Shown here one piece after another: positions 5,963 to 49,764 of a stretch of DNA of 64,000 bases. Position 1 is the first letter of the stretch. Every line of letters starts with the position of its first letter. A model generated the notes under the pieces. That model was not told the origin of the DNA. It searched no databases and saw nothing but the letters and a program-made list of their open reading frames with translations. A program made the position numbers and the translations under genes. Source of the DNA: Nitratireductor sp. XY-223. Its GTDB lineage: Bacteria; Pseudomonadota; Alphaproteobacteria; Rhizobiales; Rhizobiaceae. The stretch lies in contig NZ_SPNT01000003.1 in the NCBI RefSeq assembly GCF_004959855.1, forward strand, positions 434,001 to 498,000, read 5' to 3'.

Positions 5963-5982
5963 CGGCCGAACGGGCGGCGCAC

Positions 5983-6013
5983 AAAAAGGGCCGGCAGCGA
6001 GCCGGCCCCTTTT
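5983..6013. terminator. Bidirectional rho-independent terminator
   Basis: AAAAAGGGCCGGC, loop AGCGA, then GCCGGCCCCTTTT gives an 8-bp GC stem (5988-5995 with 6001-6008) with A-run upstream and T-run downstream. It lies between convergent frcR and the EF-hand gene and can serve both. Confidence 0.85.
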
Positions 6014-6042
6014 GACGGAAGTTTGTCCCTTGGCGGTGGAAC

Positions 6043-7038: not shown

Positions 7039-7123
7039 CGCTCCTGTCCTTTCGGTTTTTTGCTGCGATGACAGGAAGCTAGTTCGCACTTGTCGCAAAA
7101 CTACGGTTGAAAGCGCACGAATG

Positions 7124-7171
7124 TGTCGCCAACTGTCACCAGGGTCCGGCCTGATACAAATTGATACAATT
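7124..7171. promoter_or_regulatory. Two sets of 10-bp direct repeats, likely response-regulator sites
   Basis: TGTCGCCAAC/TGTCACCAGG (7124-7143) and TGATACAAAT/TGATACAATT (7152-7171) are tandem 10-bp direct repeats in the divergent region between the EF-hand gene and the OmpR-type regulator. OmpR/PhoB-family regulators bind as dimers to direct repeats of about 10-11 bp. Binding by the adjacent regulator is inferred. Confidence 0.55.
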
Positions 7172-7250
7172 TCAATTTCCGCAATGGACAATGAGCCGCT
7201 AACTCTTTGATTATCGGAGCATCGGTTCCGCCTTATCCGGGTCCCTCGCA

Positions 7251-7979
7251 ATGAACGAAACCAGTGCGCATATTCTTGTTGTCGACGATCATCGCGATAT
7301 TCGCGAGACGCTTGCCCGCTATCTCGTCAAGAACGGACTGCGGGCGAGCGTCGCCGATGGCGCAGCGCAGGCGCGCAAGATCCTGGCCGCATCGTCCATC
7401 GATCTGGTCGTGCTGGATGTCATGATGCCCGGCGAGGACGGGCTGTCGCTATGCCGCCATCTCGTGGAGAAGGGCGGAGCGCCCGTCATCCTTCTGACCG
7501 CGATGGCCGAGGACACCGACCGCGTCGTCGGTCTGGAGATCGGCGCGGACGACTATGTGACAAAACCGTTCAATCCACGCGAATTGCTCGCGCGCATCCG
7601 CGCCGTGTTGCGGCGAACGTCGCTGGTCCCGAAAGAACGCGATCCTGTTTCCAGCGAGCGCCTTGCCTTCGACCGTTGGGTGCTGGACCTGTCCCAGCGC
7701 CATCTCGTCGGGCCGGACGATGTGATCGTGCCGCTCTCGACGGGTGAATTCCAGCTGCTGGTGGCCTTCCTGAAGCGACCCAGGATGGTGCTGTCGCGCG
7801 ACCAGCTTCTCGACCTGACAACCGGCCGAACGCCCAATGTCTTCGACCGCTCCATTGACAACCAGGTCAGCCGGCTGCGCCGCAAGATCGAACCGGATCC
7901 GAAGAAGCCGGAGCTGATCAAGACGGTTTGGGGCGGCGGATACACGTTCACGGCGCAGGTCAAGGATCCGGACGCATGA
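7251..7979 (+). CDS. OmpR-family response regulator
   Basis: A 242-residue two-domain regulator. The receiver domain (about 1-120) has the acidic pair D12/D13, phosphoacceptor D56 in VVLDVMMP, T-loop LLTAM and the conserved Lys in DDYVTKPFNP. The C-terminal winged-helix Trans_reg_C domain includes LSTGEFQLL and SRLRRKIEPDPKKPELIKTV followed by WGGGYTF. The stop overlaps the start of the histidine kinase gene by four bases. It acts as a transcription factor in the cytosol; the divergent EF-hand gene is a plausible target. The signal sensed is not evident. Confidence 0.93.
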   Translation: MNETSAHILVVDDHRDIRETLARYLVKNGLRASVADGAAQARKILAASSIDLVVLDVMMPGEDGLSLCRHLVEKGGAPVILLTAMAEDTDRVVGLEIGADDYVTKPFNPRELLARIRAVLRRTSLVPKERDPVSSERLAFDRWVLDLSQRHLVGPDDVIVPLSTGEFQLLVAFLKRPRMVLSRDQLLDLTTGRTPNVFDRSIDNQVSRLRRKIEPDPKKPELIKTVWGGGYTFTAQVKDPDA

Positions 7980-9382
7980 ACTGGAAGCGCCTAAGCCTGC
8001 TGCCGCGCAGCCTTGGCGGGCAGCTCATCGGGCTGATCCTCATCGCCGTCGTGGTGTCGCAGGTCTTTACCCTTTGGCTGTTCACCGACGAGCGGCGCGG
8101 CGCATTGCTCGAGCTTGCCGGCGGCCGCGTCGTCTCACGCACCGCGGCGCTTGTCGATCTGCTCGACGACACACCGAGCGAACTGCACGAACAGATCCGC
8201 AGGGCGGCATCCAGCCCGGTCTCCTACTACTGGATTTCAGATCGCCCGGCGCTGTCAAAGAGCGGAACGAGCCGCACCGATCTGCGGATCCGCCGGGCCA
8301 TAGCGGAGGAAATCGGAGAAGAGCGTGCCGTGCGCACGCAGGTGGGACGCAACATCGAGGTGCCGCGCTACCGCCATGTGCGCCAGCGCGCCGATCGCTC
8401 CAAGCAGAAAGCGGCCACGCGGCTCGTGCCGCTGGTGGTCGCCATGTCGGTCCAGCTGGACAATGGCCGCTGGCTCAACATGGCCGCCAGCCTCGACATG
8501 CAGCGCAGTTCTTTGGCGCGCCTCTTCGTGTCGATCGCCCTGATGGCCGTTGCCGTGATCGTGATCGTCGGCTTCACGGTTCGCCGCCTGACGCGACCGT
8601 TGAGCAATCTGGCGGAGGCCGCGGACCAGCTTGGGCGCGGCGCCGAGGGGCTCAGCGTGGAGGAAGCCGGACCGCAGGAGGTCAGGAGCGCCATCCATGC
8701 CTTCAACGTCATGCAGGAGCGGCTGACACGTTACGTCCAGGACAGGACACGCATGCTGGCGGCGATCAGCCACGACCTGCGCACCCCGATCACCTCGCTG
8801 CGCATCCGCGCTGAGTTCATCGAGGATGAGGAAAACCGCAACCGCATCATCCTGACGCTCGACGAGATGCAGCGCATGGTGGAGGCGACCCTGGCCTTCG
8901 CGCGTGACGAGGCGCGGCGCGAGGAGCAGAGTCGTGTCGATCTCGGCGAGTTCCTCGACGCGATCGTGACCGACTACCAGGACATGGACCAGCCGGTGCG
9001 GCTGGAGGCCGGGCCGGGCGAGGGCGCGGCCAGGATCGTCATTGCCTGCCGGCCCATCGCCATGAAACGGGCTCTGCGCAATCTGATCGACAACGCGGTC
9101 CGCTACGGCAACGAGGCCGCCATCGGTTATACGGCCGACGACGGGTTCGTATCGATCACCATCTCCGACAATGGCCCCGGCATTCCCGACGGGCAGCTGG
9201 ACGAGGTGTTCGAGCCGTTCCTGCGGCTCGAGGATTCGCGCAGCGAGGAGACCGGCGGCATCGGCCTGGGGCTGGCCATCGCCCGATCCAACATCCACGC
9301 CCACGGCGGCACGCTCAAGCTTGAAAACCGGGATGAAGGCGGACTGAGAGCAACGGTGACGCTGCCGCGCGAGGCCGGGTGA
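7976..9382 (+). CDS. Sensor histidine kinase, EnvZ type
   Basis: A 468-residue membrane kinase. The first transmembrane segment is at about residues 14-34, a periplasmic loop of roughly 140 residues follows, and the second segment is near 178-198. Then come HAMP, the H-box AAISHDLRTPITSLR, the N-box LRNLIDNAVRYG, G1 DNGPGIP, the F-box and G2 GGIGLGLAIA. I start at the ATG at 7976 (four-base overlap with the regulator) because it gives MNWKRLSLLPRSLGGQLIGL, a normal kinase N-terminus. The periplasmic domain is basic and has no recognised ligand fold. It partners the regulator encoded just upstream. Confidence 0.93.
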   Translation: MNWKRLSLLPRSLGGQLIGLILIAVVVSQVFTLWLFTDERRGALLELAGGRVVSRTAALVDLLDDTPSELHEQIRRAASSPVSYYWISDRPALSKSGTSRTDLRIRRAIAEEIGEERAVRTQVGRNIEVPRYRHVRQRADRSKQKAATRLVPLVVAMSVQLDNGRWLNMAASLDMQRSSLARLFVSIALMAVAVIVIVGFTVRRLTRPLSNLAEAADQLGRGAEGLSVEEAGPQEVRSAIHAFNVMQERLTRYVQDRTRMLAAISHDLRTPITSLRIRAEFIEDEENRNRIILTLDEMQRMVEATLAFARDEARREEQSRVDLGEFLDAIVTDYQDMDQPVRLEAGPGEGAARIVIACRPIAMKRALRNLIDNAVRYGNEAAIGYTADDGFVSITISDNGPGIPDGQLDEVFEPFLRLEDSRSEETGGIGLGLAIARSNIHAHGGTLKLENRDEGGLRATVTLPREAG

Positions 9383-37074: not shown

Positions 37075-37395
37075 CCGTTCTCTCCTGCTCGAAAATTGGG
37101 GGCGATTGTCGCCGGCCGTCCGCGCCCGAACAGCGCCCTTCCAGGCGCCAATACAAACGCGGAATTCGCGGCCAAATTTGGCCGAGATTGTGTTGCTTGT
37201 CGGGTAATCCTGTGCCGCTTTTCCATCTGCCGGCGATAGGCGGCAAGAATGCCCGATGCCGGCTACGTCGCGAATTTTTCACAATAATTCTTGATCGTGC
37301 AATTAACCGAAAGCTAGAGTCATTCTTAAGCGGCTAAACTCGGCGATCAGATGCGGTCGCCACGGGGCCGCGCTTGATCGTGGAGGATGCGGGTA

Positions 37396-38973
37396 ATGAT
37401 GCGAACAGTCTTTTATGTAGTCTCGGTGGTTGCGCTGCTCGCCGTCTGGCTCATCGCATTGGCCTGGCCGCCCTTTGTCTGGGCGCTGGTGATCGTCATC
37501 CCGCTTATTCTTGTCGGCTTCTATGACATTCACTGGTCGGATCACAACGTCCTGCGAAACTACCCGGTGATCGGCCACCTGCGTTACGCCTTCGAATTCA
37601 TCAGCCCCGAAATCAGGCAGTATTTCGTCGAGAACAACGAGGACGGCAAACCCTACAACAGGATTCACCGCAACCTGGTCTACGCGCGTGCGGCCGGAAC
37701 GGTCGATACCCAGCCCTTCGGCACCCAGCGGGACATCATGGAGGTGGGTTTCACGCGGGGCAGCCATTCGCTCGCCCCCAAGGAGGTTTCGCGCGACGAG
37801 GCCCGGGTCACCGTCGGCGGTCCGGAATGCAAGCAGCCTTACTCGGCCTCGCGCCTCAACATCTCCGCCATGAGTTTCGGCGCGCTCAGCCCGACCGCGA
37901 TCCACGCCCTGAACGCCGGTGCGAAACGCGGAAATTTCGCCCACAATACAGGTGAGGGCGGGCTGAGCCCGTACCATCTTGCCGGCGGCGGCGACATCAT
38001 CTTCCAGATCGGCACGGGCTATTTCAGTTGCCGCACGCCCGAGGGAACGTTCGACGAGGACAAGTTCATCGAGATCGCCAATCGCGATGTGGTCAAGATG
38101 ATCGAGATCAAGCTGTCCCAGGGTGCGAAGCCGGCCCATGGCGGCGTTCTGCCTGCCGCGAAGGTCGACGCGGAGATCGCGCGAATCCGCGGCGTGCCCG
38201 TGGGCAAGGATGTCATCTCACCGCCGGCGCACACGACCTTCTCTTCGCCCGAGGGATTGCTGGAATGGGTCGCGCGTTTGCGCGAGGTCAGCAACGGCAA
38301 GCCGATCGGTTTCAAGCTGTGCATCGGCAGGCGCCACGAATTCATGGGCATCGTCAAGGCCATGGTGAAGACGAAGATCCTGCCGGACTTCATAACGGTC
38401 GACGGAGCGGAGGGCGGCACCGGTGCGGCGCCACTGGAGTTCACCGACCGCCTCGGCGTGCCGATCAACGAGGGCCTGTCCTTCGCGCATTCATGTCTCG
38501 TCGGCGCGTCGCTGCGCGACAAGCTGCGGGTGATCGCCAGCGCCAAGGTGGTGACCGGTTTTCACATGGTGGAGAAAATGGCGCTCGGTGCGGATATGTG
38601 CAATATGGCGCGGCCCATGCTGTTCGCGCTCGGCTGTATCCAGGCTGTGCGCTGCAATACCAACACGTGTCCCACCGGCATTGCGACGCAGGACCGCCAG
38701 CGCGCCAAGGCGGTGGACATCGACTCGCGTCAGGTCCGGGTGGCGAATTTTCACGACGCAACGGTTGAAAGCTTCCTGGACCTCGTCGGCGCAATGGGCA
38801 TTGAATCGCCGGACCAGTTGACGCCCGACCTGATCTACCAGCGGGTCGCCGATGAAACCGAGCGCACCTATGATGAAATCTACGCGTTCCTGAAGCCGGG
38901 CGAACTGCTCGGAAAGGACATCAACCCCGCTTTCGCGCATCACTGGGCAAAGGCCAGCGCCGAAGCGTTTTGA
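37396..38973 (+). CDS. FMN-binding glutamate synthase domain protein, membrane anchored
   Basis: A 525-residue protein with two N-terminal hydrophobic helices (about residues 2-45) and a GltS FMN TIM barrel. YSASRLNISAMSFGALSPTA, GGISPYHL-like GEGGLSPYHLAGGGDIIFQI, TVDGAEGGTGAAPLEF and CNTNTCPTGIATQD are the hallmark segments; the last is the cluster-binding cysteine motif. It lacks the glutaminase domain of true GltB. Such stand-alone proteins are of uncertain role. ATG 37396 has GGAGG at 37382-37386 at proper distance; ATG 37387 is too close. It converges with the first permease gene, five bases away. Confidence 0.85.
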   Translation: MMRTVFYVVSVVALLAVWLIALAWPPFVWALVIVIPLILVGFYDIHWSDHNVLRNYPVIGHLRYAFEFISPEIRQYFVENNEDGKPYNRIHRNLVYARAAGTVDTQPFGTQRDIMEVGFTRGSHSLAPKEVSRDEARVTVGGPECKQPYSASRLNISAMSFGALSPTAIHALNAGAKRGNFAHNTGEGGLSPYHLAGGGDIIFQIGTGYFSCRTPEGTFDEDKFIEIANRDVVKMIEIKLSQGAKPAHGGVLPAAKVDAEIARIRGVPVGKDVISPPAHTTFSSPEGLLEWVARLREVSNGKPIGFKLCIGRRHEFMGIVKAMVKTKILPDFITVDGAEGGTGAAPLEFTDRLGVPINEGLSFAHSCLVGASLRDKLRVIASAKVVTGFHMVEKMALGADMCNMARPMLFALGCIQAVRCNTNTCPTGIATQDRQRAKAVDIDSRQVRVANFHDATVESFLDLVGAMGIESPDQLTPDLIYQRVADETERTYDEIYAFLKPGELLGKDINPAFAHHWAKASAEAF

Positions 38974-38978
38974 CCCGT

Positions 38979-40268
38979 TCAGGACGGCTGGCCGTTGGTC
39001 TCCGGCCTTACCGCGGCGCGATAGGTGAGCAGCGCCGTCGTGGCATTGATGAGCGCGAGCGCCAGGATCGCCCAGATGACATGCTGGAGATGCGCCACCG
39101 CGGCCATTGCGAACGACAACCCGATTCCGACCGTGCGAACCGCGACCTTGGAAACGCCGATACCGATGACCGCATACTCCTCTGGTGCGACGTCCATGAA
39201 GTAGAGGTAACGCGCCGTAGAGACGCCGCGCACCGCGACCGTGACGATGAACAGCGCGATCGCGTGGATATAGGGCGAATCGACCACCGGATAAAAGAAG
39301 TTCGCGACCAGCATGAACCCGGCCAGGGCGGCCAGGCACGCGCCTGCCGTCATCACGGTTCGCGTCGACTTTGTGCCGACCAGGCCCCACAGCGGACCGG
39401 AAACGATCAGCGCGGTCGCCGACGAGATGATCAGCGCGCTCAGCCCCTTCGGCGAGGTATGATGCGCCAGGGCGGCAAGGATCGCGTAGAAGGGAATGGA
39501 AAGTTCGACCGTAAGCAATGCCAGCCTGACGCGCAGGTAGCGTTGGAACCAGGGCATGCCGATCAGCAGACGGAAGTTGTCAATGGCCTCGCGTACCTGT
39601 TCGGCGACGGAGAATTTCCGGGCTTCTTCCGGTGAGGCTTCCTCTCGCTGGGAGCCGCCTTCGAACTCGCGGACCATCAGGATGACCGCACTCGCAACCA
39701 CAAAACAAACCACACCGATTGTCACCAGCACCACATGGCGGTCGAAGGGTGGATCGTCGAAGAAGGCCCGGTGCGCGGACCACGCCAATATGCCGGTCGC
39801 GATGCCGCCCAGGGTCATGACCGAGTACATCAGCAGCGTCCGCGATCGCGAATTGAGCACCTCTCCGTAGAAACCGGCGGTCATGATGGCCTGGTATTCG
39901 GATGTCGCGCCGACCAGCAGGATGACCAGGACGAAACAGATCCCGACCACGAGCGGCGTTCCGAAGGTGGCGGCAGCCAGCGCCGTCATGAAAGCGATCG
40001 CCAACACTATGTCTGTGGCGGCAAGGTCCCTTTTCTTTTGCTGCCGGCGCGCCGCAATCGGCGTGGCGAATGTCGCCGTGAACAGGCAGGCCGTCTGACC
40101 GAATGTCACCAGCATGCCCGCAAGCAGCACGGGCAAATCCAGGGAAATCGCAAGATAGGTCAGCACGACCGACGGGTTCGCCATCGTCCAGGCCGTGGTG
40201 GAAAAAGTCCCCTGTCCGAAAAGGACGGACAGGTTGCGTTTCTCACTGGAAGACTGCGTGTTGTTCAT
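38979..40268 (-). CDS. MFS-like permease, tandem copy A
   Basis: A 429-residue membrane protein with about twelve hydrophobic segments in two halves, separated by an acidic cytosolic loop (EGGSQREEASPEEARKFSVA). The motif SIPFYAILAALAHHTSPKG and the start NLSVLFGQGTFSTTAWTMAN recur almost unchanged in the neighbouring copy, so the two are tandem paralogues. Classical MFS signature motifs are weak, so the family call is tentative. Located in the leftward unit opposite marR-rdhA, it is a candidate transporter for a halogenated aromatic acid or its product. Confidence 0.7.
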   Translation of the reverse strand: MNNTQSSSEKRNLSVLFGQGTFSTTAWTMANPSVVLTYLAISLDLPVLLAGMLVTFGQTACLFTATFATPIAARRQQKKRDLAATDIVLAIAFMTALAAATFGTPLVVGICFVLVILLVGATSEYQAIMTAGFYGEVLNSRSRTLLMYSVMTLGGIATGILAWSAHRAFFDDPPFDRHVVLVTIGVVCFVVASAVILMVREFEGGSQREEASPEEARKFSVAEQVREAIDNFRLLIGMPWFQRYLRVRLALLTVELSIPFYAILAALAHHTSPKGLSALIISSATALIVSGPLWGLVGTKSTRTVMTAGACLAALAGFMLVANFFYPVVDSPYIHAIALFIVTVAVRGVSTARYLYFMDVAPEEYAVIGIGVSKVAVRTVGIGLSFAMAAVAHLQHVIWAILALALINATTALLTYRAAVRPETNGQPS

Positions 40269-40298
40269 GCGTATGCTGTGCCATCAAACAATCATGAT

Positions 40299-41588
40299 CT
40301 ATGCGGTCACCGGTTTCGGGCGGCTTGAGACCGACAGCACCAATATTGCCGTGCAGATGTTAAGAAAAGACACAAAGGTGATTGCCCAGGCAATATGTTG
40401 TGTGTGGGCAAGGAATGCCATGAATGCCGCCACCGCGATGCTCCACACCTTGACGACGCTCTTGGAGACGGCGAGGCCGGCGACCCGGTGCTCTTTCGGG
40501 GCGTTGTCGAGATAGTAGAGCGCCCTGGCATTGGTAACGCCCTGAACCCCGACCGTGGCGACAAACAGGGTAGCCGAGTGAATAATCGTCTTGTCGACGA
40601 CCGGTACGAAGTGGTTGAGAACCAGCGCCACACCGCTGACAGCCGCAAGCAGGGAACCGCAGGCCATGACGCTGCCGTTGGAGAGCCGTCCGACGGAACG
40701 CCATATAGGTCCGCCCAGCATCAGGGCGGCCGCCGACGATATAATGAGTGCGGTCAATCCCTTGTGAGAGCCGCTATGCGCAATGGCCGCCAGGATGGCA
40801 AAGAACGGAATGGACAGTTCGACGGTCTGCAACGCCAGCCGGATCAGAAGGAAACGGCGGAACCACGGCATCGTCAGGAGCTCGCGCAGTTTGGAAGCGA
40901 AACCCGCGATGGCGAGACGGGCCGCCTGATAGACGCCTTGCTGGTCCTTCCCGGTGTGACCGTCCTGCACGTCGCGTTTCAAATCACGAACCAGCAAAAC
41001 GGAAAGGGCGGCGATGCAGAAGCTGACGACCGCGATGGCGACAACCGCGGAGTGCCGCGCGAAGGCAGGATACTCCTGGGTAACAACGTGCGCCGTCCAG
41101 GTAAACGCGATCGTGCACATGCCGCCGATCCCCATGGCTGCATAGATCAGCCGCTGGCGGCTGTCGGACTGCAGCACGTCGGCGAGAAAATCCCAGTTGA
41201 TGAGGTTTTGATATTCCTCGACCATGCCGATCAGCAGGACGACAACGATAAAGGCGGCCGTGACGACCGCAGTGGACGCGGTCAGGACGGAGGCGACCGC
41301 CAGCAGGCAACAGACGGCAAGAATGAAGTCGGTCCCGGCGATGACGGCCTTCTTGTTGACAAGGCGGGCCGCCGTATCGGAGCCGAACACGGCTACACCG
41401 ACATTGCCGGAGCGCCTGATACTGACGAGCAGGCCGGCCAGCAAAACGGGCATATCCATCGATATCGCAAGATAGGACAGGACAACCGCAGGGTTGGACA
41501 TGGTCCACCCGACCGTCTGGAGAGCCCGTTGGCCGGACAGGATCGACAGGTTTCTTGTCTCGTGCGGATTGACCTGCGGCGCGTTCAT
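40299..41588 (-). CDS. MFS-like permease, tandem copy B
   Basis: A 429-residue polytopic protein paralogous to copy A: NLSILSGQRALQTVGWTMSN, SIPFFAILAAIAHSGSHKG and ARALYYLDNAPKEHRVAG align with the same places in A. The start is set at ATG 41588 (MNAPQVNPHE), giving the same length as A. It lies 30 bases upstream of copy A and 43 bases downstream of a hydroxyacid dehydrogenase, so the three are probably one operon controlled from the marR intergenic palindrome. Two similar transporters side by side may form a heterodimer or import and export partners (inference). Confidence 0.7.
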   Translation of the reverse strand: MNAPQVNPHETRNLSILSGQRALQTVGWTMSNPAVVLSYLAISMDMPVLLAGLLVSIRRSGNVGVAVFGSDTAARLVNKKAVIAGTDFILAVCCLLAVASVLTASTAVVTAAFIVVVLLIGMVEEYQNLINWDFLADVLQSDSRQRLIYAAMGIGGMCTIAFTWTAHVVTQEYPAFARHSAVVAIAVVSFCIAALSVLLVRDLKRDVQDGHTGKDQQGVYQAARLAIAGFASKLRELLTMPWFRRFLLIRLALQTVELSIPFFAILAAIAHSGSHKGLTALIISSAAALMLGGPIWRSVGRLSNGSVMACGSLLAAVSGVALVLNHFVPVVDKTIIHSATLFVATVGVQGVTNARALYYLDNAPKEHRVAGLAVSKSVVKVWSIAVAAFMAFLAHTQHIAWAITFVSFLNICTAILVLSVSSRPKPVTA

Positions 41589-41631
41589 GTCCCGTTCGTT
41601 CTGCTTCAAAACCTCGGTATCGGCTTGTTGG

Positions 41632-42594
41632 TCATTTTCGCGGCCAGGGCGTTTCAGCGACCGGCGTGAGCGGTGCGCCGTTTTCGAACCAGCCGATCAG
41701 GTTGTCGACCAGCAACTGCGCCATCGCGTTGCGCGTGTGGACCGACGCCGAAGCCATGTGCGGAAGCAGAACCACATGGTCCATGTCCATAAGTTCCTGC
41801 GGCACATGTGGTTCGTTTTCGAAGACATCGAGCCCGGCGGCCATGATTGTCCGGTCCTGCAGGGCCGCCACGAGTGCCGGCTCGTCGACGGTGGTTCCGC
41901 GCCCGATATTGATGAATATACCCTCGGCGCCGAGCGCCTGAAAGATCTCGGCGTTGATCAGGCCGCGGGTGGCTTCGCCGCCGGGCGCCGCGCACAGCAG
42001 GACATCGCAGTGGGACGCAAGTTCGCGCAGGCTCGAGCAATAGGGGTAAGGCACGTCGCGCACACGGGTACGGTTGTGATAGCAAATCTCCATCCCCATC
42101 GCCTGCGCGCGCACCGCGATCGCCCTGCCGATGCGCCCCAATCCAAAAATTCCGAGCCGCTTGCCGCGCAGCGTGCCACGGGTGAGGGGATATCCCTTCT
42201 TCCATTTCCCGGCGCGCAGCCAGCGCTCGGCCGCCGACAGTTCACGCGCCGTCATGATCATCAGGCCGATGGCGGCATCGGCGACTTCTTCCGAAAGCAC
42301 GTCCGGCGTATTGGTCACGATGATGTTCCTGGCGGCGGCGTGCGGCACGTCGATATTGTCATAGCCAACGCCGTAGTTGGCGATGATCTCCAGTCGCGGG
42401 AGTCGATCCATCAGATTGGCCCCGATGCCGCGGGCCGGGCTGCCGGCGATGCCGCGGATTTCGTCGGCGACCGCGTTCAGCACGTCATCGGCGGCATCGC
42501 CGGCAGGAAGCGAATGGGTTGTATAGGCCGCGGACAGCTGTTCGTGCACAAGCGGCATCAGGCTTCCGGTAATCAGGATTTCTGGTTTCGGCAT
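41632..42594 (-). CDS. D-2-hydroxyacid dehydrogenase (NAD(P)-dependent)
   Basis: A 320-residue dehydrogenase. The Rossmann motif GKRLGIFGLGRIGRAIAVRA, NYGVGYDNIDVPHAAARNII, INIGRGTTVDEPALVAALQD and the catalytic His segment VVLLPHMASASVHTR are those of the GhrB/hydroxypyruvate-glyoxylate reductase group. I start at ATG 42594; ATG 42618 is a second option with an AAGGA directly against it. It is the first gene leftward from the MarR intergenic region. Its role in dehalogenation, if any, might be handling a hydroxy- or oxo-acid from ring or side-chain breakdown (inference). Confidence 0.87.
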   Translation of the reverse strand: MPKPEILITGSLMPLVHEQLSAAYTTHSLPAGDAADDVLNAVADEIRGIAGSPARGIGANLMDRLPRLEIIANYGVGYDNIDVPHAAARNIIVTNTPDVLSEEVADAAIGLMIMTARELSAAERWLRAGKWKKGYPLTRGTLRGKRLGIFGLGRIGRAIAVRAQAMGMEICYHNRTRVRDVPYPYCSSLRELASHCDVLLCAAPGGEATRGLINAEIFQALGAEGIFINIGRGTTVDEPALVAALQDRTIMAAGLDVFENEPHVPQELMDMDHVVLLPHMASASVHTRNAMAQLLVDNLIGWFENGAPLTPVAETPWPRK

Positions 42595-42708
42595 TGGCGC
42601 TTTCCGTTTGGTGGACATTCCTTTTAGATCGCTTCGGCCGAACCTTGAAGTGTGAGAATGAATTTGCCGCATGAATGTCAACGGGCACGATATGCAGATA
42701 ATTGACAT

Positions 42709-42720
42709 TGTTAATTAACA
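42709..42720. promoter_or_regulatory. Probable MarR operator
   Basis: TGTTAATTAACA is a perfect 12-base palindrome in an AT-rich stretch midway between the divergent dehydrogenase and marR genes (47 bases before marR). MarR proteins bind such AT-rich palindromes, so this is a likely shared operator. Confidence 0.7.
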
Positions 42721-42766
42721 TTGATAATCATATTGGCGTGAGGCGGGGATAGCGGAGAAAAAGGCG

Positions 42767-43216
42767 ATGGACCGCGGCTACAGACTGCACACCAGGCTTG
42801 GATACAAGGTTTCCCGGCTTGCCCGGCTGATGGAAGCGCAACTCGACGAGATGATCAGCCCCTTCGGGGTCACGCGGCTGATGTGGTGCATCCTCAGCGG
42901 TGTCGGACTTGAGGATGTCAGGACGCCGTCGGCCCTTGCGGATTACGTTGGCATCGCCCGCTCGGCGGTTTCGCGTGCGTTGCGAACCATGGAGGACATG
43001 GGGCTCATCAGCCGTTGCGGCGCCGACGGTGACGGCCGCGGCGTCGAGATCAGGCTGACAGAAAGAGGCAGGTCCGTGATGGAACAATGCCGTCCTCTTG
43101 TCGAACAACTCAACGACCATTTTACCGACAAGATCGCGCAGGACGAGCTTGCAGCGGTGCTGCGCCTCGTCGACGCGTTGTCGGCCGGCGAAACTCGGGA
43201 GCTGGCACGTCTGTAA
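42767..43216 (+). CDS. MarR-family transcriptional regulator
   Basis: A 149-residue winged-helix regulator. PSALADYVGIARSAVSRALR is the recognition region, followed by LISRCGADGDGRGVEIRLTE, the wing. The N- and C-terminal helices form the dimer. It precedes the reductive dehalogenase by four bases and is divergent from the dehydrogenase/permease unit, so it probably controls both in response to an aromatic acid, the usual MarR ligand class. Reductive dehalogenase loci of organohalide-respiring bacteria often carry MarR-type regulators too. Confidence 0.92.
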   Translation: MDRGYRLHTRLGYKVSRLARLMEAQLDEMISPFGVTRLMWCILSGVGLEDVRTPSALADYVGIARSAVSRALRTMEDMGLISRCGADGDGRGVEIRLTERGRSVMEQCRPLVEQLNDHFTDKIAQDELAAVLRLVDALSAGETRELARL

Positions 43217-43220
43217 CGCC

Positions 43221-46200
43221 ATGAACGTCAATCTCTTCTCGACCAGAAAGCGTCCCTTCCACCTCGGTCCCTTTCCGCTTGAAAGGCTGAAGCGCACATC
43301 GCACGGCCCGGATCTTGGCGCGGTAGAGCCGATGCGGCCGCTCGATTTCAGCCGTCACCCGCAGGAGTCCCTGGCCCATGCCATGGCCCGGTTCCTCGCC
43401 ATGATGGATACCGTGCGTGATGGAAAGATCGTCCACGGCGAGGCCGAGATTCCCGACGACTTAAAGGAACGCGCCCATCATCTGAAGGCGGCCGGATACT
43501 ATTTCGATGCCTCCATGGTCGGCATTGCCCGTCTGGAAGCGGGGCATTTTCTGGCCGATCCGTTCCGCAATCCGATGATCGATTACATCAAGGACGAGCT
43601 TGAAGCGGGCCAGCCGAAGAGCTTCGCCTCGGGCATCGATGCCATCTATGCCGACGTGCTGGAATCGACGCGGGTGGAACTCGGACCGGTCAACCACCAC
43701 AAATATGCGCTGGTCTTTCTCGTCGAACATACGCGCGATCCGCGCCCCGAGGAGCCCGGCACGGAGTGGTTCGTCGACACCCAGGCCGAGCGCGCGGCGT
43801 TGTTGACCTCCAATGTCGCGGTGGTGATCGCCAATTACCTGCGCATGCTCGGGCACGAGGCCCGCGCCCACACGGCCACCACTTCGGACGTCGATATCAA
43901 CAGGCTCGGCGTGTCTTCGGGCCTGTGTTCGATCGAGACCGTGGAAGGCGTTCCGGCGCTGGTCAATCCGTTTGTCGGCACGCGCCTCGGGCTTGCCGCC
44001 GTCACGACGACGCTCGAAATGATCCCGGACGAGCCGCTTGGCGCCGATGCCGGCCGTGCCGGCTGGCATTCCCACGGGCCCGACTGGTGGATGGGCCGCG
44101 GTACGGCGCGCCGCGCATCGACCGCCGTCCCCTATCGCGACCGCGACTTCCGGATGGGACCGCATCCCTTCGAGACGATCAAGCGCTGCGACGAGCCGAC
44201 GACCTTTATCGACGAGGAACGGGTGCCGCGTTTCCCCAAGCGGGCGGATTTCTTTGCGCGCGCGCTGTTCGGCGACATGGGCAAACAGGTTCAGGAGGGC
44301 GCCAAGGGCGGCATGTATGTCATGAAAAGCCCGATCGGCGCCTGCGCCCGCCGTGCGCTCGGCGCGCTTCTGCTGCTCCAGTTCGGCGAAGCGCGCGGAC
44401 CGGTCTCGCCGCAGACCATGGATCCGGTGCGCAATGCCGACAACCTCAAGGCGGCGTCCTACTACCTGTCCGCCGATGCCGTGGGTCTCAGCCGCGTGCC
44501 CGACTGGGCCTATTACTCCCACGATGCCGGCGGCAATCCAATCGAGCCCTACCATGACAGCGGGGTATCGCTGCTGCTCGATCAGGGTTTCGAAACCATG
44601 GAGGGCGCCAGCGGCGACGACTGGATTTCGGTCGCCCAGTCGATGCGCGCCTATTTGCGCTTCTCGCTGCTCGGCGGCGTCATCGGCGAGCAGATCCGCC
44701 GGCTCGGCTATTCCGCCCGCGTCCATTCGGTGCTCGACGGGGATGTCCTGCAACCGCCGCTTCTTCTGCTTTCCGGCCTCGGCGAGGTCAGCCGCATCGG
44801 CGAGGTCATCCTCAACCCGTTTCTCGGGCCGCGGCTGAAATCCGGCGTCGTCACCACGTCGATGCCGATGACCCACGACAAGCCGATCGACTTCGGCCTT
44901 CAGCAATTCTGCAATTCCTGCAACAAATGCGCGCGGGAGTGTCCGTCCGGCGCCATCACCGCCGGTCCCAAGCTGATGTATAACGGCTACGAGATCTGGA
45001 AGTCCGACGCCGAGAAATGCGCCCGTTATCGCATAACCAACACGGCCGGCGGCATGTGCGGACGCTGCATGAAGACATGTCCCTGGAACCTTGAGGGCCT
45101 GTTCGCCGATGAAGCCTTCCGCTGGCTTGCCATCAACGCGCCGCACAGCGCCCGCACGCTTGCTGCACTCGACGATGCGCTGGGCCGCGGCGAGATCAAC
45201 CCGGTCAAGACCTGGTGGTGGGACGTCGAACTCGATACCGAAAAAGGCCGCTATGTCAGGGCGGAGGCGTCCAACAGGCGCGGGCTTTCGAAGAAACTCG
45301 ACGTCAAATACGAGGATCAGACGCTTGCCGTTTATCCGGCCGACGTGATGCCGTTGCCCTATCCGGTCACGCACCCGCTCAACCGGGAAGAAGGCATCGC
45401 GCGTTACCGGTCCTTGCTGACCCCGCAGGCTTATCGCGACAAACTCGGCCGTGGCGACGCAGAGGGACTGGCGCCGAAGGCGCGGCCGCTCGACGGGCCG
45501 CCGCCGGTCTTCCCCGTCATCGTTTCGAAACGCGAGGACCTCGCCGACGATATCGTGCGCTTCGAATTGACCCGGGCGGACGGCAAACCCTTGCCGCAGG
45601 TCGAGGCGGGCGCCCATGTCGACGTGGTGGTCGCGCCCGAATACCAGCGCCAGTATTCGCTGGCCGGCGATCCGTCGGACAACAGCAAATATGTCCTCGG
45701 TGTCCAGAAGGAAACCAACGGGCGCGGCGGCTCTTTGCTGATGTACCGGGTCTTCAAGGAGGGCAGGCGGGTCTTCATCAGTGAGCCGCGCAACCATTTC
45801 CCGCTGGACGAGGAGGCGCCCCTTTCAATTCTGATGGCGGGCGGCATCGGCGTGACACCGCTGATCACAATGGCGCACCGGCTGCACGCGCTCGGCCGTG
45901 AATTCATCTTCCACTACAGCGCAAAATCTGAGCAACAGTCCGGTTTCGCCGGCGAGCTGAAGGCGATGCCCTGGTCCGATCGCGTCTTCTTCCACTTTTC
46001 CGCCGACGGCAGGCGCGCCAATCTGCCGGAGCTCGTTCCCGCATACCGGCAGGGCTTCCGGCTCTACACCTGCGGTGCGGACCGCTACATGGACGGCGTC
46101 TTCGAGGCCGCCGCGGCCAAGGACTGGCCGGAGGAGGCGCTGCTCAAGGAGTATTTCTCCGTTCCCGAGGCGCCCGACTATGTCAATCACGACTTCGTCC

Positions 46201-46454
46201 TCGAACTGGCAAAGTCGGGGCGCACCGTCAAGGTTCCGGCCGAAGAGACCGCGGCCGATGCACTCAACGCCGCGGGCATCGCCGTCGACGTCAAATGCAC
46301 CGACGGCCTGTGCGGCGTCTGCGCCGCCCCGTTACTCGGCGGCGACGTTGAACACCGCGATCACGTACTTTCCGCCAAGGAGCGGGAGCACAGGATCATC
46401 CTGTGCTGCTCACGGGCGCAGGACGAGGACGGCGTCGTCAAGGTGGATCTTTAG
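43221..46454 (+). CDS. rdhA: Self-sufficient catabolic reductive dehalogenase (RdhA fused to reductase)
   Basis: A 1077-residue fusion. Residues 1-560 carry the RdhA corrinoid fold, with a possible catalytic Tyr in WAYYSHDAGG (Y431/Y432). Two [4Fe-4S] sites follow: C564, C567, C570, C574 (CNSCNKCARECPSG) and C600, C613, C616, C620 (CGRCMKTCPWN). From about 755, a phthalate dioxygenase reductase-like module has the flavin motif RQYSLAGDP and the nucleotide motif MAGGIGVTPL; a plant-type [2Fe-2S] domain has C1026, C1031 and C1034. No Tat signal and no RdhB anchor are present, so it is cytosolic. This matches BhbA of Comamonas and NpRdhA of Nitratireductor, which dehalogenate ortho-halophenols using NADPH. 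It begins four bases after marR. Confidence 0.93.
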   Translation: MNVNLFSTRKRPFHLGPFPLERLKRTSHGPDLGAVEPMRPLDFSRHPQESLAHAMARFLAMMDTVRDGKIVHGEAEIPDDLKERAHHLKAAGYYFDASMVGIARLEAGHFLADPFRNPMIDYIKDELEAGQPKSFASGIDAIYADVLESTRVELGPVNHHKYALVFLVEHTRDPRPEEPGTEWFVDTQAERAALLTSNVAVVIANYLRMLGHEARAHTATTSDVDINRLGVSSGLCSIETVEGVPALVNPFVGTRLGLAAVTTTLEMIPDEPLGADAGRAGWHSHGPDWWMGRGTARRASTAVPYRDRDFRMGPHPFETIKRCDEPTTFIDEERVPRFPKRADFFARALFGDMGKQVQEGAKGGMYVMKSPIGACARRALGALLLLQFGEARGPVSPQTMDPVRNADNLKAASYYLSADAVGLSRVPDWAYYSHDAGGNPIEPYHDSGVSLLLDQGFETMEGASGDDWISVAQSMRAYLRFSLLGGVIGEQIRRLGYSARVHSVLDGDVLQPPLLLLSGLGEVSRIGEVILNPFLGPRLKSGVVTTSMPMTHDKPIDFGLQQFCNSCNKCARECPSGAITAGPKLMYNGYEIWKSDAEKCARYRITNTAGGMCGRCMKTCPWNLEGLFADEAFRWLAINAPHSARTLAALDDALGRGEINPVKTWWWDVELDTEKGRYVRAEASNRRGLSKKLDVKYEDQTLAVYPADVMPLPYPVTHPLNREEGIARYRSLLTPQAYRDKLGRGDAEGLAPKARPLDGPPPVFPVIVSKREDLADDIVRFELTRADGKPLPQVEAGAHVDVVVAPEYQRQYSLAGDPSDNSKYVLGVQKETNGRGGSLLMYRVFKEGRRVFISEPRNHFPLDEEAPLSILMAGGIGVTPLITMAHRLHALGREFIFHYSAKSEQQSGFAGELKAMPWSDRVFFHFSADGRRANLPELVPAYRQGFRLYTCGADRYMDGVFEAAAAKDWPEEALLKEYFSVPEAPDYVNHDFVLELAKSGRTVKVPAEETAADALNAAGIAVDVKCTDGLCGVCAAPLLGGDVEHRDHVLSAKEREHRIILCCSRAQDEDGVVKVDL

Positions 46455-46607
46455 CCGCCGCAGTTCAGATGCGCGGTTACCCGTGGGCGCCACCCGGGCT
46501 GCCCAATATTCATGCACAACCGCATCTTCCTGATTGCAAAGAGTTTTGCTAGGCTTCCCGAATACGCACGGAAAAAGTGCGGAGGGGAAACAGTAAAAAG
46601 GCTCGGC

Positions 46608-48014
46608 GTGCCCTTTAACGAGATGGAAGAAAAGGACGGTGTACGCGCCCCTTACAGGCGCATCGCCGACTGGATTGAAGAAACGGGCACCGAGTTACTT
46701 GGCCGCCGCAACGACGAGGCGGAGGCGATCTTCCGGAAAATCGGCATCACCTTCGCGGTCTATGGCGAGGGCGGCGATCCCGAGCGGCTGATCCCGTTCG
46801 ATCTTATCCCGCGCGCTTTCTCCGCCGCCGAGTGGGGGCAGCTCGACCGCGGCATCCGCCAGCGGGCACGGGCGCTGAACGCGTTCCTGTACGACATCTA
46901 CCACCGGGGCGAGATCATCAAGGCCGGTATCATTCCCGCCAGGCTGGTTTACTGCAACTCCGCCTTCCTGCCGCAGATGGTGGGCTTCGCACCGCCGGGC
47001 CGCGTCTACAGCCACATTGTCGGCATCGATATCGTGCGCACCGGACCCGGCAGCTTCCAGGTTCTTGAAGACAACTGCCGAACGCCCTCCGGGGTCAGCT
47101 ACATGCTGGAAAACCGCGAAATCATGGCGCGCATGTTTCCCGACGTCTTCAGCGGTGGGCCGGTGCAGCCGGTCGACCACTACCCCGACGAGTTGCTGCG
47201 CACGCTGAAGGAAGTCGCGCCGGCCTCTGGAACCGGTGATCCGACGGTGGTGCTGTTGACGCCGGGCTCGCTGAACTCGGCCTATTACGAGCATTCCTTT
47301 CTCGCCGATCTGATGGGCATCGAACTCGTCGAGCCGCAGGACCTTTTCGTCGATGACGCGAAGGTGTGGATGCGCACCACGCGCGGCCCGCAAAAGGTGG
47401 ATGTCATCTACCGGCGCATTGACGACGACTATATCGATCCGCTGACCTTCCGGCCCGACAGCATGCTCGGCATCGCCGGCCTGTTCGATGCCTACCGGGC
47501 CGGCAACGTCAATATCTGCTCGGCGCCAGGGGCCGGTGTTGCCGACGACAAGGCGATCTACATCTACGTTCCGGAGATGATCCGCTTTTATCTCGGCGAG
47601 GAGCCGGTGCTGGAAAACATCCCGACCTACCAGTGCGGCCGGGAGGACGAACTCGCCCATGTCCTGGACAATCTGGAGGAACTCGTCGTCAAGGAGGTTC
47701 ACGGCTCAGGCGGCTACGGCATGCTGATCGGACCGAAGAGCACCAAACAGGAGGTCGCCGAATACCGCAAACGCATTGTCGCAGATCCGTCCGAGTTCAT
47801 CGCCCAGCCGACGCTCGACCTTTCGACCGCGCCGACGCTTCAAAACAACCGGGTGGACGGTCGGCACGTTGATTTCAGGCCGTTCTGCCTGGTCGGGAAG
47901 AACATCCGGCTGGTTCCGGGCGGCCTGACCCGCGTGGCGCTGAAAGCCGGCTCGCTCGTCGTCAATTCCAGCCAGGGCGGCGGCGTCAAGGACACCTGGG
48001 TGCTGCGGGAATGA
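46608..48014 (+). CDS. Circularly permuted ATP-grasp protein (type 2)
   Basis: A protein of about 468 residues from GTG 46608 (VPFNEMEEKDGVRAPYRRIA), the usual length and start for this family; ATG 46512 would add 32 unrelated residues. AAGG lies six bases before the GTG. Family blocks include ITFAVYGEGGDPERLIPFDL, FQVLEDNCRTPSGVSYMLEN and VKEVHGSGGYGMLIGP. It should activate a carboxylate with ATP to form an amide or peptide bond. It is the first gene of a conserved four-gene set with alpha-E, transglutaminase-like and Anbu proteins. Confidence 0.92.
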   Translation: MPFNEMEEKDGVRAPYRRIADWIEETGTELLGRRNDEAEAIFRKIGITFAVYGEGGDPERLIPFDLIPRAFSAAEWGQLDRGIRQRARALNAFLYDIYHRGEIIKAGIIPARLVYCNSAFLPQMVGFAPPGRVYSHIVGIDIVRTGPGSFQVLEDNCRTPSGVSYMLENREIMARMFPDVFSGGPVQPVDHYPDELLRTLKEVAPASGTGDPTVVLLTPGSLNSAYYEHSFLADLMGIELVEPQDLFVDDAKVWMRTTRGPQKVDVIYRRIDDDYIDPLTFRPDSMLGIAGLFDAYRAGNVNICSAPGAGVADDKAIYIYVPEMIRFYLGEEPVLENIPTYQCGREDELAHVLDNLEELVVKEVHGSGGYGMLIGPKSTKQEVAEYRKRIVADPSEFIAQPTLDLSTAPTLQNNRVDGRHVDFRPFCLVGKNIRLVPGGLTRVALKAGSLVVNSSQGGGVKDTWVLRE

Positions 48015-48018
48015 CGCC

Positions 48019-48942
48019 ATGCTGAGCCGCGCCGCTGAAAACCTGTTCTGGCTGGGCCGCTACATGGAGCGCGCCGAGGCCACCGCCCGCATGATTTCGA
48101 TGGGGCAGCGCATGGCGACCCTTCCGGGTAGCCAGGGGCAATCGGAATGGACATCCCTCATGCAGGCGACGGGCGCCCCGATGCCGGACGGCAGACCGGT
48201 CACCGAGGTCGATATCGTCGCCGAACTCATACTCGACCCGGTCAGTCCGTCGGCGGTCCAGGCCTGCTTCGCCAAGGCAAGGGAGAACGGCAGGGCGGTG
48301 CGCACGGCGCTGACGCAGGAAATGTGGGAGAGCCTCAACGAGGACTGGCGCTACCTTGAATCGATAGACACGCAGGCGGCCCGCCGGCAGCTCGACCATC
48401 TGCTCGAATGGATCCGCAAGCGCGCGGCGATCTTCCGCGGCGCCGTCGAAACCGCGATGCTGCGCACCGAGGGTTACTTCTTCCTGAGGCTCGGCAGCAA
48501 TATCGAACGCGCCGACATGACGTTGCGGCTGTTGAACGTGAAGTATTTTCTGCTGCTCCCCGAGACGGAGGTGGTCGGCGGCGGCCGTGACCATCACCAG
48601 TGGATGTCTATGCTGCACGCGGTGTCGGGCCTGCGCGCCTACCACCACCACTATGGCGGCGACTACGCGCCCTGGAACATTGCCGATTTCCTGCTGCTCA
48701 ACCAGACTTTCCCGCGCTCCGTCGCATTCAGCTACAGCCAGATCCACGGCTGTCTCGACAAGCTCGACAAGAATTACGGCGGCGCGCATAACTGCCAGCG
48801 CACCGCGAAGACCGAGCTCAACCGTCTGTCCCGTCTCGATATCAACGCGGTCTTCAGCGATGGCCTGCACGAATTCATCAACGACCAGATCGCCAAGACG
48901 GCGCGCATCAGCAAGGAGGTGTCGGATGCCTACCACTTCTGA
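48019..48942 (+). CDS. Alpha-E domain protein (DUF403)
   Basis: A 307-residue helical protein. It opens with LSRAAENLFWLGRYMERAEA, the alpha-E signature, and continues with ETAMLRTEGYFFLRLGSNIE and FLLLNQTFPRSVAFSYSQIH. The family is always linked to the circularly permuted ATP-grasp enzyme and is believed to act with it in making a short peptide or peptide-like modification. It starts four bases after the previous stop. The biochemical role is not established. Confidence 0.92.
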   Translation: MLSRAAENLFWLGRYMERAEATARMISMGQRMATLPGSQGQSEWTSLMQATGAPMPDGRPVTEVDIVAELILDPVSPSAVQACFAKARENGRAVRTALTQEMWESLNEDWRYLESIDTQAARRQLDHLLEWIRKRAAIFRGAVETAMLRTEGYFFLRLGSNIERADMTLRLLNVKYFLLLPETEVVGGGRDHHQWMSMLHAVSGLRAYHHHYGGDYAPWNIADFLLLNQTFPRSVAFSYSQIHGCLDKLDKNYGGAHNCQRTAKTELNRLSRLDINAVFSDGLHEFINDQIAKTARISKEVSDAYHF

Positions 48943-48954
48943 CGGCAAGGGTTG

Positions 48955-49764
48955 ATGCGGCTGAACGTGCGTCATCGCTCCGAGTACGGTTACGAGCCCG
49001 CCGCGGCACGGGTCTCGTTGCGGCTCAAGCTGTTTCCATCGGTCTATGACGGGCAGTCGGTCGAAGGCTGGACCGTGACGGTCAACGGCGATCCGGTCGA
49101 GCCGATCTACATCACCGGCTATGGGGACGAAATCGCGCTTTGGCAAAGCGACGGCGCTGTCTCCAGTGTCGAGGTCTTGGCGCACGGCATCATCGCGACC
49201 GAGGACAAGGCCGGGGTCGTGCGCGATCTGCCGAAAAAGCCGCCATCGAGCATCTTCATGCGCGACACCGAATTGACGCGCGCTGATGCCGCGATACAGG
49301 CGCTTGCGGAAGCGGCGCGCAAGGAAGACCAGCTCGAGACGACGCACGCGCTGTCGCTTGCGGTCCGCGAGGCGATTGACTACCGGCCGGAGGCCACGAC
49401 CACGAGCACCACGGCGGCCGAGGCGATGGCAATCGGCGCCGGCGTTTGTCAGGATCACTCCCACGTCCTTATTTCCGCCTGCAAGGCGCTCGGCATTCCG
49501 GCGCGCTATGTCACCGGCTACCTGAAGGCGGCCGATGAAGAGGACGAACTGCTCGAGACCCACGCCTGGGTGGAAGCGCATATCCAGCATTTCGGCTGGG
49601 TGGGGCTGGACCCCTCCAATGGCGTCTCGCCCACCGATCACTACATCAGGATTGCCTGCGGGCTGGACGCCGACGACGCGACTCCGATAAAAGGCCATGT
49701 GGTCGGCGGCTCGCAGATAACGCTCTCGGCGGATGTCGCGGTTTCCGACAGTCAGCAGCAGTAG
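48955..49764 (+). CDS. Transglutaminase-like cysteine peptidase family protein
   Basis: A 269-residue protein. The N-terminal Bact_transglu_N domain (LNVRHRSEYGYEPAAARVSL) is followed by a papain-like core with the triad Cys in AIGAGVCQDHSHVLI, His in LLETHAWVEAHI and Asp in WVGLDPSNGVSPTDHYIRIA. Start at ATG 48955 (an adjacent TTG adds one residue). In this cluster it is thought to cleave or transfer the peptide made by the ATP-grasp/alpha-E pair. It is cytosolic, with no signal peptide. Confidence 0.92.
   Translation: MRLNVRHRSEYGYEPAAARVSLRLKLFPSVYDGQSVEGWTVTVNGDPVEPIYITGYGDEIALWQSDGAVSSVEVLAHGIIATEDKAGVVRDLPKKPPSSIFMRDTELTRADAAIQALAEAARKEDQLETTHALSLAVREAIDYRPEATTTSTTAAEAMAIGAGVCQDHSHVLISACKALGIPARYVTGYLKAADEEDELLETHAWVEAHIQHFGWVGLDPSNGVSPTDHYIRIACGLDADDATPIKGHVVGGSQITLSADVAVSDSQQQ

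Follow-up and report, generated by a model that had tools for sequence, protein, structure and literature searches.

We analysed a 64,000-nucleotide stretch of the Nitratireductor sp. XY-223 genome (contig NZ_SPNT01000003.1, positions 434,001 to 498,000; hereafter the window, in whose own numbering coordinates are given). It carries a marR gene followed closely by rdhA, which encodes a predicted catabolic, self-sufficient reductive dehalogenase (RdhA) fused to a phthalate dioxygenase reductase (PDOR) module. Three observations are put forward as new. A conserved 19-bp candidate operator is common to many marR-rdhA relatives. The divergent slot of the unit, which holds a tripartite ATP-independent periplasmic (TRAP) importer in many relatives, holds a D-2-hydroxyacid dehydrogenase gene and a pair of major facilitator superfamily (MFS) permease genes here. 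A dehydrogenase-MFS cassette can also stand apart from rdhA. With moderate confidence, we read the locus as one in which MarR controls the import of an ortho-halogenated phenol and its reductive dehalogenation, the product of which would feed 4-hydroxybenzoate or homogentisate catabolism.

RdhA as a predicted self-sufficient catabolic enzyme

rdhA (43221..46454, + strand) encodes a protein of 1077 residues that scores 186.4 bits against the reductive dehalogenase (RDH) profile TIGR02486 (cut-off 160.35). Among solved structures, the dehalogenase part is best matched by NpRdhA (4ras, E 9e-162), over residues 159-742 (the best stretch) and 4-107. The C-terminus is best matched by P450 chains and by 2pia, a phthalate dioxygenase reductase (E 2e-53 over residues 768-1071), and Pfam places a Fer2 domain at residues 997-1066. 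The chain divides into vestigial and active corrinoid domains (approximately residues 1-560), a region for two [4Fe-4S] clusters (approximately 564-623) and a PDOR-like FMN/NAD(P)H/[2Fe-2S] reductase (approximately 766-1071). The initial annotation had joined a dehalogenase to such a reductase in a single chain and assigned it to the catabolic class; the TIGR02486 score and the 2pia match bear out the fusion, and homology supports the class.

The corrinoid domain is duplicated (residues 9-273 against 306-556, 25.5% identity, E 9e-16), and from this alignment we take the first domain to be a decayed copy of the second, a hallmark of catabolic RdhAs (PMC10463259). Over residues 564-623, Fer4_7 and Fer4_16 both match, and C564, C567, C570, C574, C600, C613, C616 and C620 are invariant in all 14 aligned sequences. 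The catalytic Tyr, Lys and Arg of NpRdhA, on which the assignment was to be judged, are all kept (Y426, K488 and R552 correspond to Y478, K540 and R604), and further pocket equivalents are S474 (S422), M475 (M423) and F345 (F291). F345, S474, M475, Y478, K540 and R604 are unchanged across all 39 fused RdhAs aligned. Fifteen of these 39 agree with one another at every one of the twelve mapped positions: the window, four same-genus loci and ten alpha- and betaproteobacterial loci.

A weak match to the profile of epoxyqueuosine reductase (QueG), at 25.5 bits over residues 501-623 and below the cut-off of 200, could be taken to mean that the protein is a QueG relative, or else a respiratory RdhA. 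QueG does not win this comparison, however: the RDH model is passed at 186 bits, NpRdhA is matched at E 9e-162, and a reductase is fused to the chain. Two 331-aa frames elsewhere in the genome (C33:300000-300455 and C11:1316735-1317190), which match RdhA residues 473-628 only, at 32-33% identity, are probably the QueG genes. Neither a twin-arginine signal at the N-terminus nor an rdhB gene beside rdhA was evident by eye, with no signal predictor and no dedicated rdhB search run. We rejected QueG identity on the profile scores, which also speak against a respiratory enzyme, and consider this reading as a whole highly improbable.

Distribution and phylogeny of fused RdhAs

The initial annotation had called the class rare and named BhbA and NpRdhA as fused examples. 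With the full-length protein as query (E ≤ 1e-150), 31 of the 297 genomes sampled from the family had a match (28 of the 273 of good quality), and these belong to 18 of 109 genera. Within the genus, all eight genomes searched (G000 and G397-G403) carry an RdhA frame of at least 1074 aa, with two fused-length copies in G400, and these RdhAs fall into more than one clade. Most catabolic RdhAs carry the reductase domain (PMC10463259). On these grounds the fused class is not new, nor can it be called rare here. BhbA stands as a fused example, but NpRdhA does not, since it lacks the reductase (PMC10463259). Using the RdhA part alone (E ≤ 1e-60), there were matches in 25 of 397 genomes of the order, unfused proteins counted in; none of the 20 listed same-family genomes of this sample besides our own is among them, so the protein is patchily distributed within the family.

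Among named organisms, the closest relative is Hoeflea poritis (locus L008; listed as Allohoeflea poritis in NCBI), whose species name suggests a link to coral. A maximum-likelihood tree was built from 47 rows cut at 760 residues, leaving out rows shorter than 700 aa (L081, L082, L090, L109) and loci collected later; the midpoint root serves for drawing only. The window RdhA pairs with that of H. poritis (100/99) and nests first with G398 (99/98) and then with G399 and G400 (100/99), within a 15-row alpha/betaproteobacterial clade (100/99). BhbA is placed apart, with L108 and L080 (100/100).

A conserved candidate operator for MarR

Only 4 nt separate the end of marR (42767..43216, + strand, 149 aa) from rdhA. 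The marR product matches Pfam MarR_2 at 42.5 bits, which supports the regulator gene that had been proposed; it now comes with a conserved candidate site. This is the 19-mer TAATTGACATTGTTAATTA (42699..42717, no strand assigned), an imperfect palindrome with three mismatches to its own reverse complement, which includes TTGACA at 42702-42707. The initial annotation had instead singled out a palindromic 12-mer, TGTTAATTAACA, at 42709-42720; the 19-mer begins 10 bp before it. A conserved site does lie at marR, but the conserved element is the 19-mer: H. poritis has it exactly, whereas the 12-mer is changed there at one position, and the exact 12-mer was rejected as the operator on these grounds. 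TGTTAATTAACA has its sole exact copy in the 6.19-Mb genome here, with one further place at one mismatch, a count that by itself shows no enrichment because the backward control pattern gives five per strand.

Of the 16 other marR-rdhA loci, 14 have the 19-mer ahead of marR at up to five mismatches, distant TRAP-bearing ones included; the exceptions are L015 (six mismatches) and L064 (seven). At that threshold it was found at none of the 46 loci in which no marR directly precedes rdhA (best match six mismatches), for which the 220 nt before rdhA were scanned, a geometry that differs from that of the marR loci. Five of these controls have a marR-like gene that is divergent or farther off (L016, L107, L109, L161, L180); one of them, L107, carries a site with seven mismatches, a match that 5 of 300 shuffles attained. 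In the shuffle test of the marR loci, the observed match was reached by 0-2 of 300 shuffles in 15 of 16 cases, with L064 failing at 60 of 300; a scan of the 170 nt before marR in 13 other loci gave 6 of 300 for L015 and 41 of 300 for L064. L144 and L177 were skipped due to too little upstream DNA, and for L060, whose marR lies approximately 280 nt before rdhA, the stretch -990..-770 was scanned instead of -650..-430. Some rows, among both the marR loci and the controls, are near-copies (L011/L019, L106/L163/L165, L062/L063, L067/L068, L072/L076, L074/L077). Since the search started from the sequence of the window itself, which close relatives share by descent, it is the distant loci that carry the argument.

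Within the genome, the related 17-mer ATTRACANTGTTAAYTA has six matches at up to two mismatches, four of which overlap at 42699-42730, where a second, weaker half-site copy (42712..42730, no strand assigned) overlaps the first. Elsewhere in the genome there is no match at up to one mismatch and two at two mismatches. These two were rejected as further regulon members, being at the chance level given by the backward control (0 forward, 2 reverse). With four of the six matches here and the rest at control level, the MarR regulon looks local. As the 19-mer contains TTGACA, bound MarR could block a putative -35 box.

Gene neighbourhoods of fused rdhA loci

We surveyed 65 fused-type loci, 58 of which have at least 4.5 kb upstream, leaving out L008 and L009 (taken as L058 and L060), L158-L160 (taken as L010, L019 and L011) and L081-L090 (unfused or cut off). 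marR ends within 120 nt of a same-strand rdhA in 15 of the 58, the window included, and in 17 if L060 and L015 are added; the marR of L015 is hidden from the strict rule by an overlong DctP frame. DctP or DctM (TRAP) matches occur in 15 of the 58. A TRAP importer fills the divergent slot in 9 of the 17 marR-rdhA loci, where the window and H. poritis have the dehydrogenase and two MFS paralogues. In three of the 58 (window, H. poritis, G398) the dehydrogenase lies close to rdhA, and permeases, counted only as relatives of the window's two, lie within 5 kb of rdhA in two (window, H. poritis).

Other companions among the 58 are PobA (five loci), sulfatase (four) and MttB (four, one at only 28% identity), and pobA lies directly beside the fused rdhA in L070 and L075. 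Sulfatase-family genes were seen in L071 (8018-9568) and L072 (8882-10555), in both of which PF00884 was tested, and also in L076, L174 and L175; they would fit sulfated bromophenols as substrates. MttB-family genes lie beside fused rdhA in L060 (-2468..-858 relative to rdhA), L061 (8087-9622) and L071 (13404-15245), that is, in two same-genus species and one more distant, and possibly point to N-methylated halogenated amines.

An ATP-grasp gene in the 3' flank is common to the window, H. poritis, G398, G399 and G400. Next to marR, the first three of these have the dehydrogenase, while G399 and G400 have an MttB homologue (PF06253, 734 bits in G400), so companion genes have been swapped at one and the same locus. 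Twin MFS genes are likewise not unique to the window. L078 has a tandem pair of another cluster 2.7 kb 3' of rdhA (5903-8424 from the rdhA start), behind an opposite-strand frame, and G403 has two relatives of the window permeases close together without rdhA (L110).

In G398 (L059, 9696-15562), the dehydrogenase is followed by a small open reading frame (ORF), a histidine kinase, a response regulator on the opposite strand and an MFS gene, the last at 5.2-6.5 kb from rdhA. G403 (L111, 2589-8108) shows the same order and strands, minus the small ORF, on a different contig from its rdhA, at 62% (dehydrogenase), 53% (kinase), 71% (regulator) and 43% (MFS) identity to G398; kinase and regulator were named by sequence reading, not family search. 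No marR or rdhA match was found at E 1e-10 in the 15-kb stretch around the G403 cassette (2.6 kb on the dehydrogenase side). The dehydrogenase-MFS cassette is therefore separable, since a further species of the genus has it with no rdhA alongside. The pairing with twin permeases and a dehydrogenase, to which the initial annotation had drawn attention, is present, and the permease linkage that it expected in related genomes is kept in H. poritis, but the low counts and the rdhA-free G403 cassette do not support a fixed unit.

These data bear on a second possibility, namely that marR-rdhA dehalogenates alone and that the dehydrogenase and MFS genes form an independent hydroxyacid-uptake cassette for another compound, divergent by chance. 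The same order of genes away from rdhA in G403 and beside it in G398 would agree with this, as would the 55 of 58 loci without the dehydrogenase near rdhA. On the other hand, the linkage has held in three species of one supported subclade (99/98) despite RdhA divergence to 82%, the operator sits between both units, and TRAP importers fill the same slot in 9 of 17 marR-rdhA loci. We treat independence of the two units as a possible, but less likely, explanation.

No description of the arrangement of twin permeases, hydroxyacid dehydrogenase and fused rdhA was found in the open-access literature, most subscription journals lying outside the scope of the search. In the main text of PMC13101508, on a marine Roseobacter debrominase, the words MarR and TRAP are absent.

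Dehydrogenase, permeases and flanking genes

All five ORFs were found with the order and coordinates of the initial annotation, including the divergence of marR and rdhA from the other three. The dehydrogenase gene (41632..42594, - strand, 320 aa) is separated from marR by 172 nt. Its start was set at 42594, where similarity to relatives begins; the alternative ORF-finder ATG at 42708 is disfavoured as it would overlap the operator and relatives align only from 42594. Downstream, after 43 nt, comes MFS-a (40299..41588, - strand, 429 aa), followed after a further 30 nt by MFS-b (38979..40268, - strand, 429 aa).

The dehydrogenase matches PF02826 (177.9 bits) and PF00389 (77.3 bits), and contains GLGRIG, GRG, FENEP and PHMAS, which we take to be its catalytically meaningful motifs. 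Its closest solved relatives are the glyoxylate/hydroxypyruvate reductases 5v72, 5j23 and 5uog (325 bits), presumably rhizobial; it also matches the hydroxyphenylpyruvate reductase 3ba1 (249 bits), which we assume to be of plant origin. The similarity to 3ba1 allows, without proving, an aromatic 2-oxo acid as substrate. A plasmid search returned 134 records, every one below 60% identity and generic.

The two permeases share 44.9% identity. MFS-b matches Pfam MFS_1 (48.2 bits, cut-off 33.4) and had no match in the PDB at E 1. For MFS-a no Pfam match was listed even at E 1, and it is linked to MFS through its approximately 45% identity to MFS-b. A plasmid search with MFS-b gave seven Vibrio/Salinivibrio records at 23.5-26.8%, with no clue to substrate, and the permease family (E ≤ 1e-20) occurs in 6 of 297 family genomes, our own included.

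Downstream of rdhA, at 46512-49764, lie the circularly permuted ATP-grasp gene and two further frames, relatives of all of which recur 3' of rdhA in related species. At the other end, a 528-aa glutamate-synthase-domain protein (37387-38973; only PF01645 listed) is kept in H. poritis and G398. A 778-aa frame antisense to rdhA (43461-45797, - strand) is assumed to be a high-GC artefact.

Proposed function

The genome encodes CobN (cobaltochelatase, 1747 bits), PobA (654 bits, adjoining pcaB and pcaD) and 4-hydroxyphenylpyruvate dioxygenase (HPPD, 402 bits). From these single markers of their pathways, the host is probably able to synthesise B12 and to live on 4-hydroxybenzoate or 4-hydroxyphenylpyruvate. 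The locus was initially described as self-contained, which is not supported: no ring-cleavage gene was seen in it, and pobA and HPPD sit elsewhere in the genome.

We propose that, without substrate, MarR would occupy the 19-bp operator overlapping TTGACA between marR-rdhA and the divergent cassette, and so repress transcription until a halogenated phenolic compound releases it. The permeases would bring the compound in, and the dehydrogenase might interconvert a 2-hydroxy and a 2-oxo side chain. RdhA is predicted to remove ortho halogens from phenols in a reaction that tolerates oxygen and is driven by NAD(P)H. FMN would accept a hydride from this cofactor, after which single electrons would reach base-off cobalamin by way of the [2Fe-2S] cluster and the two [4Fe-4S] clusters. 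As homology to NpRdhA and JtRdhA suggests, the ortho halogen would be taken off the phenol ring with Tyr478 as proton donor, while Lys540 and Arg604, with Ser474, would hold the phenol oxygen. The product would then be degraded through 4-hydroxybenzoate/protocatechuate or homogentisate, by catabolic genes that lie outside the locus in the same genome.

This proposal is supported by the family assignment, the residues kept in 39 of 39 fused RdhAs, the corrinoid duplication, BhbA at 50.5% identity and the activity of JtRdhA (PMC10463259). It is also supported by the conserved operator with its negative control and no other genomic site at up to one mismatch, by TRAP transport genes in the same divergent slot of relatives, and by pobA beside fused rdhA in L070 and L075 together with CobN, PobA and HPPD in the host.

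Several points weigh on the other side. Five of the twelve mapped pocket positions differ from NpRdhA (K307A, F310Y, P311V, A419V and N452V, which are A361, Y366, V367, V471 and V504 in the window protein; positions from PMC7565698, with the alignment around 307 less sure), so the substrates of NpRdhA cannot be assumed. The AlphaFold model of RdhA is poor (pLDDT, the predicted local distance difference test, 57.5 with 14 aligned sequences), and that of MFS-b, although all-helical, reaches a pLDDT of 47.9 with four sequences. Finally, due to the rdhA-free copy in G403 and the MttB homologue that takes the place of the dehydrogenase in two subclade members, the cassette may not belong to the dehalogenation pathway.

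MFS paralogues are often exporters, and no ring-cleavage gene was seen in the locus, so the permeases could instead export halogenated phenols or their products in a detoxification locus rather than one for carbon use. We find this quite unlikely, given that the corresponding slot in relatives is occupied by TRAP importers that include a binding protein, that pobA adjoins fused rdhA in L070 and L075, and that BhbA serves carbon use (PMC10463259).

A more specific version of the uptake and dehalogenation proposal, which we consider unlikely, is that the cassette marks halogenated aromatic 2-hydroxy or 2-oxo acids (bromo- or iodo-4-hydroxyphenyllactate or -phenylpyruvate) derived from the halotyrosines that occur in marine animals. 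The permeases would import these, the dehydrogenase would yield the 2-oxo acid, RdhA would dehalogenate it and HPPD would convert it to homogentisate. If this were true, a general uptake cassette would have joined the conserved marR-rdhA unit to give an aerobic pathway of halotyrosine catabolism, of which no description was found in the open-access literature.

As self-sufficient catabolic RdhAs are active in air and need no partner proteins, their natural substrates and inducers matter for marine halogen cycling and for the clean-up of brominated phenols; only one had been studied in detail before (PMC10463259). Through the conserved candidate MarR operator, regulation becomes accessible in Rhizobiaceae as well as in further alphaproteobacterial families, and the varied companions (TRAP, MFS with dehydrogenase, sulfatase, MttB, pobA) make substrate differences inside one enzyme class directly testable.

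Comparison with known systems

BhbA (WP_015585978, Comamonas sp. 7D-2 plasmid pBHB, 1071 aa) has the same full-length RdhA-PDOR architecture, is 50.5% identical over 100% of the window protein and keeps the catalytic residues. At NpRdhA positions 307/310/311/419/452 it reads S/S/V/S/A, where the window has A/Y/V/V/V. A TctC-type binding protein, ligA and an extradiol dioxygenase beta subunit are annotated next to it; unlike in the window, its surroundings yielded no relative of marR, the dehydrogenase or the MFS permeases. As both tree placement and neighbours differ, the window RdhA falls outside the BhbA subclade and the bromoxynil cluster.

JtRdhA (Jhaorihella thermophila, WP_104007082) is, by description, a likeness to the window enzyme as an NADPH-driven self-sufficient fusion with Tyr, Lys and Arg kept (PMC10463259). 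It debrominates and deiodinates ortho-halophenols with NADPH, also in air, and does not turn over the chlorinated analogues (PMC10463259). NpRdhA (Nitratireductor pacificus; 4ras, 6zxu) shares the RdhA domain and seven of the twelve mapped pocket positions, Tyr, Lys and Arg included, but differs at the other five and in having no reductase domain (PMC10463259).

The closest comparison for locus architecture is plasmid pANY103b of Aminobacter sp. SS-2016, of the marR-rdhA-TRAP type, in which marR lies 33 nt before a fused rdhA with a divergent importer and an operator-like site with three mismatches; its TRAP importer stands where the window has the dehydrogenase and two MFS genes. In short, the self-sufficient RdhA class is already known from BhbA and JtRdhA, and what is unusual here is the transporter pair with a hydroxyacid dehydrogenase, which hints at a different food molecule.

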